Assembly (NCBI GenBank): GCA_017518975.1
Contig: JAFWTH010000099.1
Location: 1-48,170 of the forward strand
From: Clostridia bacterium
GTDB lineage: Bacteria > Bacillota > Clostridia > Oscillospirales > CAG-272
Length of the DNA stretch: 48,170 bases
Reading direction: 5' to 3'
The translations under genes and the position numbers were made by a program. Under the pieces are notes generated by a model, which was not told the DNA's origin, did not search any database, and saw only the letters and a list, made by a program, of their open reading frames with translations. Each line of letters opens with the position of its first letter. The first letter of the stretch is position 1. This document shows, piece after piece, positions 23,435-41,907 of this stretch.

Positions 23435-23463
23435 TTGACAAAAGGACGTGGTTATAGTATAAT
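23435..23463 (+). promoter_or_regulatory. Consensus sigma-A promoter of tRNA-Leu
   Basis: A perfect TTGACA (23435-23440), 17-base spacer, perfect TATAAT (23458-23463), 30 bases before the tRNA. This is as expected for a strong stable-RNA promoter. Confidence 0.88.
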
Positions 23464-23493
23464 ACACTTTGCCGACGGGAAACCGGGGGCAAT

Positions 23494-23575
23494 GCGAGAG
23501 TGGCGGAACTGGCAGACGCGCACGTTTGAGGGGCGTGTGGTTCACACCGTACGGGTTCAAGTCCCGTTTCTCGCA
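23494..23575 (+). tRNA. tRNA-Leu (anticodon GAG)
   Basis: A complete class II tRNA of 82 bases. The acceptor GCGAGAG pairs with TTCTCGC; U8, the D-arm (GGAACTGGCAGAC), anticodon stem CGCAC/GGCGTG-type and loop with GAG, a short variable stem typical of Leu, the T-arm with TTCAAGT and discriminator A are all present. CCA is not encoded. Its own promoter precedes it and a terminator hairpin follows. Its 3' part is copied in inverted form just downstream. Confidence 0.95.
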
Positions 23576-23578
23576 TAG

Positions 23579-23608
23579 AAAAAGGGCACTCGAAGAAGTG
23601 CCCTTTTT
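23579..23608 (+). terminator. Intrinsic terminator of tRNA-Leu
   Basis: A 12-bp stem (23579-23590 / 23597-23608) with a 6-base loop and terminal T-run. The pairing continues outward without interruption into the tRNA acceptor sequence, giving 23 bp per arm (23568-23590 / 23597-23619). Confidence 0.88.
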
Positions 23609-23771
23609 CTATGCGAGAAATTGAACACGGGACTTGAAGGCGCCGCGTGTAAGCAAACAGTCCGGGGGACTGTTTGCCCGCGGCGTGACCGAGGGAGCGT
23701 CAGCATTTCGTATTTTGCGAAATGCTGACCCGCGCGACCGAGAACAAGTCCCGTCCGTACCGAAGGTACGG
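23597..23771 (+). repeat. tRNA-linked structured element, copy 1 (tRNA-Leu)
   Basis: After the terminator comes an inverted copy of the tRNA-Leu acceptor 3' strand (to 23619) and of its T-loop/T-stem (12 exact bases, 23627-23638), separated by 7 inserted bases. Then follow: hairpin 1 (23653-23663 / 23667-23677) inside an outer stem (23641-23647 / 23679-23685); a TGACCGAG box (23686-23693); hairpin 2 with loop TATTTTG (23699-23710 / 23718-23729); GAGAA and a direct 10-base copy of the T-arm (23745-23754); and hairpin 3 with a 3-base loop (23755-23761 / 23765-23771). The same order occurs beside tRNA-Ser. Confidence 0.8.
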
Positions 23772-23827
23772 CAAAAAGCGGATGAAACTTCAATTTGAGT
23801 TATTTTCAGATTTGAATGACAGTCCGG

Positions 23828-24022
23828 GGGTTGCGGACAGATAAACTTTTCCGTAATCGTTCGATACTGCTGTCCGCTCGAGTTTTGCGCATGAAGCGCA
23901 AAACTCCGGAAGAAACTGTATCTCTTCAGCCGAGCCCTGACCGAGCGCCCGTCATCCTTTCGTATTTTGCGAAAGGATGACTCGCGGGCGCGAGAATCAA
24001 GTCCCCCGCGCCAAAGGCGCGG
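23828..24022 (+). repeat. tRNA-linked structured element, copy 2 (no adjacent tRNA)
   Basis: A second, more diverged unit. It has a GCGGACAG/CTGTCCGC stem and a GAGTTTTGCGC hairpin, then a TGACCGAG box (23938-23945). Hairpin 2 has the same TATTTTG loop but a different stem (23951-23962 / 23970-23981). GAGAATCAAGTCCC follows, matching part of the Leu T-arm, then hairpin 3 (24006-24012 / 24016-24022). No tRNA precedes it, so it looks like a duplicated or orphaned copy. The left edge is uncertain. The 640 bases between tRNA-Leu and the next gene hold nothing else I can support. Confidence 0.65.
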
Positions 24023-24127
24023 CGAACTTGAGTTGCAGTAACCTTCATTTTGAGTATCAGAGTTTTTGTCCCGCTCCCCGCGCAGCGGGCAGAACCGAAA
24101 GAAATACGGAAAACTATTTTACCCCCC

Positions 24128-29022: not shown

Positions 29023-30042
29023 TCAGTTTTTTTTCTCATTCCGGCGAAGTTCCGCTTGCTTGCGTATTCCCCGGAACACTTTTTCATTGATTTTACTGAT
29101 TAAATCGGCTGCTTTTTCCGGCGTAAGGGACTGATCGCCCGGAGGAAAGCTTCTTATGTCGTGAACTCCCGTAATACCCGCGCGGTCGAGAAGTTCACCT
29201 ACTTTGTGAGGAGGCAGGAACGCGGCGATAGCATGTACCTCATCGAGCCCGAAGTCATCCGGGATGCTCGCGCGGTCGACGAGCCCTGCGAGTTTATTCG
29301 AAGGGAGAAACGCCCCGAGACCGATCAGTTCCTCGACGCTGAATTCCTCGTCCGGGCTTATCCGGTCGGCGAGTTCGCCGAGTTTGTACGACGGAAGAAA
29401 AGGGGCGAGAGCGTACATTTCCGCGATCCCGAAACTATCCGGTATCTTTGCGCGGTCAACGAGCTCGGCGAGTTTGTCATGCGAGAAAAACGGGGCGAGA
29501 TCCATCAAGTCTTCAAGATCGAAGCTTTGACAGGGGTTTATCCGGTTGACCAGCTTTCCGAGATCGTACGACGACAAAAACGGCGCGAGCGCTTGAAGTT
29601 CGTTGATCCCGTAATCGTCCGGGACGTTCGCGACCCCCACGAGTTCGGCAAGTTTTTCTCTTGTCAGAAAAGGGGCGAGCGCCGCGACCTCGTAAATGCT
29701 GACTTCTGCTCCGGCGCTACTTTCAACTCTGCTTTCGAGTTCGCGAGGCGGGATGATGGGGGCGATCTTAGCCGTTTCGCTGAGCGAGATCGGCTCGCCT
29801 CCCATAACCTTTTTTACCGCGTCGGCTTCTTCACGTTTGTCGCCGAGCAGTTCGTCAAGCGTCAGCCCGAGTACGTCGCACAGGTCGTTGAATTTGGATA
29901 TATCAGGCATGGAACGGCATCGTTCCCAATTCGATACCGCCTGATAGCTGACTCCCATCTTGTCGGCGAGTTCGGTCTGGGTCATATTCTTTTCGATCCT
30001 TGCGGCGCGGATCTTGTCCGCAATTTTTTGAATATCAAACAT
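29023..30042 (-). CDS. XRE-family regulator with tandem 30-residue repeats
   Basis: A 339-residue protein. The N-terminal helix-turn-helix (IADKIRAARIEKNMTQTEL, then GVSYQAVSNWERCRSMPD) covers ~5-65. From about residue 125 at least five tandem 30-residue units follow, each like LAPFLPSYKLGELADRI plus a 13-residue tail (often IPDDFGxxExxA). Partial units flank them at both ends. The pattern suggests a helical solenoid for protein binding. The paralogue at 25670 carries about one such unit. The ribosome site AGGAGAACC precedes ATG. Confidence 0.85.
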   Translation of the reverse strand: MFDIQKIADKIRAARIEKNMTQTELADKMGVSYQAVSNWERCRSMPDISKFNDLCDVLGLTLDELLGDKREEADAVKKVMGGEPISLSETAKIAPIIPPRELESRVESSAGAEVSIYEVAALAPFLTREKLAELVGVANVPDDYGINELQALAPFLSSYDLGKLVNRINPCQSFDLEDLMDLAPFFSHDKLAELVDRAKIPDSFGIAEMYALAPFLPSYKLGELADRISPDEEFSVEELIGLGAFLPSNKLAGLVDRASIPDDFGLDEVHAIAAFLPPHKVGELLDRAGITGVHDIRSFPPGDQSLTPEKAADLISKINEKVFRGIRKQAELRRNEKKN

Positions 30043-41016: not shown

Positions 41017-41590
41017 GTTTTTGAATGAGGTGACTGCATTCTGAGCTGGCTGATACTGCGTGGCGGAGGAGGCTTCCCCTTGAGGGTAGCGAAGCGCACG
41101 GCGCGGTGGTGAATGACTGCGAACATATAAGGACACTGTATTTTGCAGTCACCGATGTTCGCTTGAAGTTTGCGCAGGAGCGCAAACTTTCGAAAGTATC
41201 CGTAATTGGTCAGAGCCGCTTTTGCAACAACCGCAGATCGCGGAAAGATCGACGCGAGGCGTCGATCTTCGGCAGACAGACGGTAACAATGAAGTACGCT
41301 TTTCTTTATTCTGTTTTTGCAACAACCGCAGATCGCGGAAAGATCGACGCGAGGCGTCGATCTTCGGCAGACAGACGGTAACAATGAAGTACGCTTTTCT
41401 TTATTCTGTCTGCAACCGAACCCCGCAGGGTAGACAAGGTGTCGCCGATAGGCGACGGATGAGGTGAGAAAGGGTACTGCATTTTGAACATGCCGTGCCT
41501 GCGGCGCGGAGTTAAGCCTTCCCCTTTGAGGGGAAGGTGTCGCCGATAGGCGACGGATGAGGTGAGAAAGGGTACTGCATTTCGAGCAGG
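41017..41590. repeat. Cluster of interspersed and tandem repeats upstream of tRNA-Ser
   Basis: A non-coding region with several layers. AATGAGGTGACTGCATT lies at its left edge. A 95-bp unit occurs twice in tandem (41221-41315 and 41316-41410), nearly identical and containing an AGATCGACGC/GCGTCGATCT hairpin. A GGTGTCGCCGATAGGCGACG block ending in GATGAGGTGAGAAAGGG occurs twice, 98 bases apart (41438 and 41536). A CTTCCCCTTTGAGGGGAAG hairpin lies between them. The GATGAGGTGA ends are the same as at 21820. No ORF is supported between 40922 and the tRNA. Confidence 0.75.
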
Positions 41591-41591
41591 C

Positions 41592-41779
41592 TGATCCTGC
41601 AAAGCAGGATCAGAGGGATTCGATTCTCAGGGGCGCGAAGTCAATTTTCGCAAAATGCGAAAATTGACGCCCCTTCGGTCACGGCGCGGTTCTGACAGCC
41701 CCCCGGGCTGTCATTCATTACCGCACCGCTTCGAATCCCTCCCTTGCTCTCTCCGAAAGGAAAAAGGAGCCCACTTCGT
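41592..41779 (-). repeat. tRNA-linked structured element, copy 3 (tRNA-Ser)
   Basis: Read on the minus strand from the tRNA. First comes the right half of the terminator palindrome with an inverted acceptor copy (41747-41771). Then an inverted T-arm copy (12 exact bases, 41730-41741) and an outer stem (41720-41727 / 41683-41690) around hairpin 1 (41693-41713, loop 3). A GTGACCGA box follows, then hairpin 2 with loop CATTTTG (41640-41650 / 41658-41668). GAGAA and an 11-base direct T-arm copy come next (41613-41623), then hairpin 3 with a 3-base loop (41592-41612). Order and spacing match the tRNA-Leu copy while stem sequences differ. Confidence 0.8.
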
Positions 41780-41790
41780 GGCTCCTTTTT
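41759..41790 (-). terminator. Intrinsic terminator of tRNA-Ser
   Basis: On the minus strand a GGAGCC...GGCTCC hairpin is followed by five T residues. The pairing extends outward into the tRNA acceptor to give 25 bp per arm (41747-41771 / 41780-41804). Confidence 0.85.
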
Positions 41791-41795
41791 CCTTT

Positions 41796-41884
41796 CGGAG
41801 AGAGAGGGATTCGAACCCTCGAAACCGTTTTGCGATTTACGCGATTTCCAGTCGCGCGCCCTCGACCAACTAGGCGACCTCTCC
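41796..41884 (-). tRNA. tRNA-Ser (anticodon GGA)
   Basis: A complete class II tRNA of 89 bases on the minus strand. Acceptor GGAGAGG pairs with TCTCTCC, the D-arm is GCCTAGTTGGTCGAGGGC, the anticodon stem CGCGA/TCGCG has loop CTGGAAA (GGA), the long variable arm is typical of Ser, the T-arm has TTCGAAT and the discriminator is G. CCA is not encoded. Confidence 0.95.
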
Positions 41885-41907
41885 GTGCCCCCAATCGGAC
41901 GAGTGGT

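Follow-up and report, generated by a model that had tools for sequence, protein, structure and literature searches.

A probable gene-less mobile cassette at the T-loops of tRNA genes in rumen and gut Clostridia

Four described systems resemble, in part, the sequence that we report here. Integron cassette arrays (attI/attC) are tandem, take up new cassettes beside a fixed site with the last to enter lying nearest to it, and have sites that fold as single strands, with complementary outer arms closing the fold. The elements that target tRNA genes, i.e. phages, ICEs and tycheposons, insert in the 3' half of the gene, re-supply a functional 3' end and leave the displaced end as a direct repeat; one integrase normally serves one tRNA. 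MITEs and the REPIN/PATE elements are short, gene-less, hairpin-rich, dispersed and probably moved in trans. Template-switch (quasipalindrome) mutations produce perfect reverse-complement copies and concerted changes of hairpin arms, and hairpins are known to arise and to be perfected by template switching (PMC8794818). In Methanopyrus kandleri a palindrome also follows tRNAs, but it is a short fixed motif and differs from the cassettes described below (PMC5217627). We found no description of these cassettes in the open-access literature.

The locus lies in a window of 48,170 nucleotides, i.e. the whole stretch of DNA that was analysed, and its parts are listed in Table 1. The original prediction was that the acceptor 3' strand of tRNA-Leu forms a perfect palindrome with the terminator, and that an inverted 12-base copy of the T-loop and T-stem lies past it, set off by some extra bases. 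Both elements were recovered by the repeat search, which gave perfect palindrome arms of 24 bp (23567-23590 and 23597-23620, loop of 6) and a 12-bp inverted T-arm pair of 100% identity (23556-23567 and 23627-23638), with 6-7 extra bases (ATTGAAC) separating the two inverted copies. The structure had been read as a single long palindrome; it is real, but is made of two layers. One is a terminator palindrome that has grown into the acceptor strand; the other is the left arm of the cassette proper. A homologous position for this left arm was found in relatives, in which direct copies of the right-arm type, cognate to their own tRNA, also occur. An automated terminator scan fails on the Leu terminator because its T-tract (23604-23608) sits inside the stem, in the right arm of the palindrome.

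Table 1. Parts of the two cassette-bearing tRNA loci of the window
Feature	Coordinates	Strand	Basis
Sigma-70-like promoter of tRNA-Leu (TTGACA, 17 nt, TATAAT)	23435..23463	+	12/12 consensus match
tRNA-Leu(GAG)	23493..23576	+	ARAGORN, sequence
3' half of tRNA-Leu duplicated by the cassette family (T-loop start at 23556)	23556-23576	+	sequence
Terminator palindrome of tRNA-Leu, including acceptor 3' strand	23567..23620	+	repeat search, sequence
Cassette 1, left arm (R''-like), reverse complement of own T-loop and T-stem 3' strand	23627..23638	+	100% over 12 nt
Cassette 1, core	23639..23744	+	fold z = -7.2, repeats, homologues at many tRNAs
Cassette 1 core, hairpin 1	outer stem ~23640-23685, inner 23653-23677	+	
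Cassette 1 core, linker TGACCGA	23686-23692	+	
Cassette 1 core, hairpin 2	23699-23729	+	
Cassette 1 core, GAGAA	23740-23744	+	
Cassette 1, right arm (R'-like), direct T-loop/T-stem copy CAAGTCCCGT	23745..23754	+	inverted match to 23627-23636
Older second cassette of tRNA-Leu, split by another repeat	23790..24005	+	self-repeat, own-genome match 23930-24026
End of older cassette, GAGAA then TCAAGTCCC	23992-23996, 23997-24005	+	
tRNA-Ser(GGA), second cassette-bearing tRNA of the window	41795..41885	-	ARAGORN, Rfam RF00005
Terminator palindrome of tRNA-Ser, 25-bp perfect arms into acceptor	41747..41804	-	repeat search
Ser cassette, left arm GAGGGATTCGAA, reverse complement of own T-arm	41730..41741	-	sequence
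Ser cassette, core (two hairpins)	41624..41729	-	sequence, fold z = -6.3
Ser cassette, right arm TCGAATCCCTCT, direct copy of own T-arm	41612..41623	-	sequence

Three further features were absent from the original prediction: the direct T-arm copy that ends cassette 1 at Leu, the conserved core of ~105 nt, and the tRNA-Ser locus, which repeats the Leu layout of palindrome, inverted T-arm, two-hairpin core and direct T-arm. From the sequence comparisons set out below, we consider it likely that what is seen at Leu is the end nearest the tRNA of a small mobile cassette that has no genes and inserts at tRNA T-loops. Other repeats were seen in the window. The apical loop of hairpin 1 holds a nested repeat (GTGCGGACAGAT...CTGTCCGC...) in several cassettes (window 23826-23925 and two other loci). 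Behind the Ser cassette, the intergenic DNA has a 95-nt sequence duplicated exactly in tandem and a near-repeat of 67 nt (41220-41409 and 41436-41600), and at 29190-29682 a 43-nt unit occurs six times at an exact spacing of 90 nt within the minus-strand ORF 29023-30042, which probably encodes a repeat protein.

The host genome (G000; 2.51 Mb in 180 contigs) has 36 distinct tRNA loci according to ARAGORN. Inverted copies were searched for in this genome and in shuffled sequence, using a strict automatic rule that required at least 10 of 12 bases of the reverse complement of a tRNA's own T-loop/T-stem within ~130 nt downstream. Ten of the 36 tRNAs passed, whereas 300 shuffles gave 0.19 on average and never more than 3/36; the same rule gave 0/26 tRNAs in G004, of the same genus, and 7/34 in the sister species G003. 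When the downstream sequence was inspected by eye, ~16 of the 36 tRNAs carried a cassette. At least 12 of the host tRNAs had a Leu/Ser-type core (Thr-GGT, Gly-CCC, Gln-TTG, Gln-CTG, Tyr, Glu-CTC, Arg-ACG, Val-CAC and others), and four further ones (Pro-CGG, Arg-CCT, Trp and Ala-CGC) had other cores between their T-arm copies, again by eye. A displaced tRNA-Ser 3' half with a tandem pair of cassettes was present on contig C136.

Several neighbouring arrangements were recorded alongside these counts. The Arg-CCT, Trp, Ala-CGC and Met tRNAs have other cores, of type B (GGCGATG/GCGTTGCG stems), between their T-arm copies. Downstream of a tRNA-Met(CAT) on contig C103 of the host the anticodon arm has seemingly been copied, giving CTCCGGGTTATGAG, 11 nt, AATAACCCGGAGGT and then a core-like stretch. 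A second repeat family directly follows (distal) tRNA 3' ends at five loci, and consists of its own A/T-flanked terminator followed by a mosaic of small hairpins with the borders GATGAAATC, TGATATCC and AATGATGTT. On contig C89 (17683-18482) an integrase gene lies directly 3' of tRNA-Ser(TGA), and the arrangement around C136:29448, a tRNA-Ser 3' half followed by two cassettes, fits an island integrated between the tRNA and its cassette. Outside tRNA genes, type A cores occur at one constant junction in an abundant palindromic repeat (CTTCCCCTTGAGGG..core..AAGGTG) of G000 and G038 and in a few viral contigs; no tRNA duplication was seen at these cores.

The unit, i.e. tRNA 3' half, terminator, inverted T-arm, core and tRNA 3' half again, is found in 20+ rumen and gut Clostridia, and many loci hold it as tandem arrays; all of the genomes are draft MAGs, and the arrays sit so often at contig ends that the counts are lower bounds. 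The inverted copy therefore recurs both in relatives and at other tRNA loci of the host, and is not the one-off rearrangement that had been considered as the alternative to a recurring feature. The core (linker, GTGAATGAC, GAGA) is conserved, on the same strand, across families of the order, and the T-loop is the breakpoint in all type A loci. Most relatives have only the 12-nt T-arm copy, placed behind an AT-rich spacer, and no inverted acceptor part. We searched GTDB contigs with a pattern that combined one T-loop type with the core, and obtained 51 stretches, which all bore the label Clostridia, Oscillospiraceae or Ruminococcaceae and came mostly from ruminant digestive tracts. A tRNA on the same strand lay at most 450 nt upstream in 41/57 pattern matches, mostly 30-70 nt away; the remaining matches mostly began at a contig end or lay behind a truncated tRNA 3' half, with 2-3 lacking any trace of a tRNA. 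A strict pattern matched 16/295 genomes in an order-wide sample and 1/398, the host genome only, in a phylum-wide sample, and a reversed control pattern gave zero matches in both samples.

A distal tRNA 3' half matching at 15/16 positions or more was present at 37 loci, with two or more such halves at 6 of these, and in the host genus the distal copy is often reduced to the T-arm. From 3' half to 3' half the units mostly measure 137-190 bp at intact loci, and reach about 230 bp. The terminators of the distal and proximal copies are near copies at 10/37 loci and unrelated at 21/37, and consequently no one simple duplication model fits all loci; if the target's 3' half and terminator had merely been duplicated, only about a quarter of the loci would be accounted for.

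Comparison of related genomes indicates how the units arrive. At tRNA-Gln(TTG), the sister species G003 has an empty site in which the tRNA and its terminator are directly followed by the next gene. The flanks on either side align with those of G000 (752-1576 on one side, 1851-2909 on the other); only in G000 does the 23-nt 3' half TTCAAATCCTGATATCCCTGAAAAA occur twice, with ~230 bp between its copies. Judged from this alignment, the one case (n=1) in which an empty site was aligned on both flanks, the comparison shows what appears to be a clean insertion at the T-loop, and the inserted unit is tRNA-proximal. The Leu locus is occupied in G000, G001, G003, G006 and G007 and empty in G004 and G005; G010 has a different insert behind an uninterrupted inverted copy, and G008 and G009 have partial inverted copies. 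G003 has a single Leu cassette, and its counterpart by alignment is the distal cassette of G000 (352-507 after the tRNA in the G000 sequence); the newer unit is therefore the one adjoining the tRNA. These arrangements are what would be expected if a cassette inserted at the T-loop and brought with it a full tRNA 3' half, restoring the gene, together with a terminator, an inverted T-arm and the two-hairpin core. The old 3' half would then stay downstream as a direct repeat, and new cassettes entering beside the tRNA would displace older ones outward and so build tandem arrays.

Direct repeats of a tRNA 3' half are the hallmark of att sites, and the tRNA pieces might have been left behind by phages or conjugative elements of the usual tRNA-integrating kind. 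This reading has in its favour that an integrase does sit at tRNA-Ser(TGA), while a displaced 3' half elsewhere carries a cassette. It is nevertheless very unlikely in our judgement, since more than 10 tRNA species of a single genome bear related cores while integrase matches numbered only 4, of which two are fragments, and since the units contain no genes. An inverted T-arm copy is, moreover, not known as a part of att sites.

The arms of the cassette are cognate to the tRNA that it adjoins. The distal arm matched its own tRNA at 9.3/12 bases (positions 62-73; permuted maximum 6.8) and the inverted arm at 3.4/5 (permuted maximum 3.1), in a set of loci that had been found without use of tRNA identity. 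In a held-out, order-wide set the values were 15.5/16 for the distal arm (permuted maximum 12.9) and 11.2/12 for the inverted arm (permuted maximum 10.4). Moreover, four tRNA species (Thr, Val, Met and Glu) in different genomes share a near-identical core, flanked in each case by different arms that fit the tRNA concerned. Either the arms were copied from the target at insertion, or the cassette entered an inverted pair that already existed. In the first case, the insertion itself or a coupled step of repair or template switching might copy the arms. We put forward tentatively, as somewhat less than an even chance, that every insertion generates new ends from the 3' half of the host tRNA, one copied in inverted and the other in direct orientation, which would allow one core to enter any tRNA gene harmlessly. 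Ends written in this way may use a hairpin-capped break or fold-back copying in place of a fixed-sequence recombinase. One of the two readings first offered for the locus, a scar left by some element able to copy the 3' ends of tRNAs, is supported by the recurrence at many tRNAs and in many species, by the empty site and by arms that are cognate at each tRNA.

Both units of the window fold far more stably than shuffles (z values in Table 1). The minimum free energy structure of the Leu unit is a three-way junction closed by the two T-arm copies; that of the Ser unit lacks this closure, the folded stretch having omitted part of the left arm. We suggest, by analogy with folded integron sites, that the inverted and direct arms would pair and close a three-way junction which could be the recombining form. 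In an alignment of 20 sequences, 12/23 predicted pairs had changed on both sides, with one-sided changes nearly absent and almost no G-U pairs; because the units had been selected on the agreement of their outer arms, the outer pairs carry a bias that the inner stems do not. Between G000 and G001 both arms of hairpin 2 have changed in concert within a stretch that is otherwise nearly identical. Both this change and the scarcity of G-U pairs suggest that a constraint or a mutation process acts on the DNA. This bears on the other reading first offered for the locus, a regulatory trailer: RNA made by read-through would base-pair with the 3' half of the tRNA and so govern how it folds. The tRNA plus trailer does fold as a long hairpin (z = -8.4). 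However, covariation without G-U pairs is expected of a constraint on DNA and not on RNA, and the T-tract lies inside the palindrome and precedes the complementary part, so that a normally terminated transcript would stop short of the acceptor and T-arm complements, which only read-through would produce. Sibling genomes lack the trailer at the same tRNAs, and the inverted acceptor copies are not conserved, being absent from most relatives. We regard a regulatory trailer as scarcely credible.

A DNA-level process is also suggested by the terminators. The median terminator arm was 11 in G000 vs 6 in G004 (p about 1e-5), and arms measured 19 at tRNAs with an inverted T-arm vs 10 at those without (p about 3e-4). 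Full, uninterrupted inverted copies exist at tRNA-Thr of G003 (28-bp arms) and tRNA-Leu of G010. We infer that the growth of the terminator stem into the acceptor strand reflects palindrome extension at the DNA level, by template switching, and not selection on RNA. The same process could in principle account for the whole locus without any mobile element, if replication switched template at the terminator hairpin and the near-palindromic T-loop, copied the 3' half in both inverted and direct orientation and captured abundant genomic repeats at the switch points. Long and perfect terminator arms in the bearers, the concerted hairpin changes, the uninterrupted copies and the known ability of template switching to create perfect hairpins all fit such an account. 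Random capture should, however, yield varied inserts and breakpoints, whereas the T-loop breakpoint, strand and core are constant across families and most relatives have the 12-nt arm alone. We therefore consider template switching unlikely as the full explanation.

An inserting cassette of this kind would presumably be moved in trans, and we searched for the enzyme. The Y1 transposases (IS200/IS605, REPIN/RAYT) were rejected, as PF01797 is absent from G000, G001, G003, G006, G007, G011, G022, G038, G050 and G054; it is present in G005 and G008, both of which lack core matches. Also rejected were the IS110/IS1111 DEDD transposases (PF01548 in only 1/14 genomes, G003), serine recombinases (PF00239 absent from G000, G001 and G006) and reverse transcriptase (PF00078 absent from G022, G038, G050 and G054, all with core matches). 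Few tyrosine recombinases were found, and the only one in nearly all of the genomes compared is Xer-like and of ~350 aa; it also occurs in genomes without core matches. The acting route must be this Xer-like recombinase, a family other than the five examined, or replication/repair. That these searches gave no dedicated recombinase counts against the mobile cassette, as do the type A cores away from tRNAs and the frequent reduction of the distal copy to the T-arm in the host genus. Two further readings of the unit were set aside. For a hammerhead-like three-way junction (TGACCGA, GAGAA), conservation of the linkers breaks down in several families, and there is no Rfam match. For a primer-binding site of reverse transcription, the arm matches the T-arm and not the acceptor end, and several bearers lack reverse transcriptase. 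Comparison of the core with Rfam gave no convincing family at gathering or permissive thresholds, the matches being to tRNA or sub-threshold and due to chance.

If the cassette reading is correct, the tRNA genes of rumen and gut Clostridia would harbour an undescribed cassette system, with the T-arm as a universal safe harbour, and a gene-less element would have spread over more than 10 tRNA species without breaking them. For annotators, the tRNA flanks of cassette-bearing genomes would be mobile sequence, and extra tRNA 3' halves would not be pseudogenes. The system would also tie tRNA integration sites to folded integron-like sites and offer a concrete target for a new recombination mechanism.

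The comparison with known systems can then be drawn as follows. That many species have a conserved core, placed at a fixed position of the tRNA, is left unexplained by template-switch mutations. Unlike MITEs and REPIN/PATE elements, the cassettes have ends cognate to each target, and their bearers in the host genus lack a Y1 transposase; the constant terminal inverted repeats and target duplication of a MITE were not found, the cassette arms being inverted but varying with the host tRNA. Unlike the tRNA-targeting elements, the cassettes are gene-less and of about 150-230 bp, occupy many tRNA species per genome and carry an extra inverted T-arm and a terminator of their own; they encode no integrase, for which the units are too short, and they share the direct 3'-half repeat at both ends (37 loci and the empty site). 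In contrast to integrons, the fixed site is the tRNA T-arm, many tRNAs are used at once, and there is neither a cargo gene nor, apparently, a linked integron integrase. The R''/R' motifs of attC (RYYYAAC / GTTRRRY) are absent and the outer arms are instead the T-loop and T-stem of the host tRNA, while the entry of new cassettes beside a fixed site, as in integrons, was found both at Leu (G003/G000) and at Gln-TTG.
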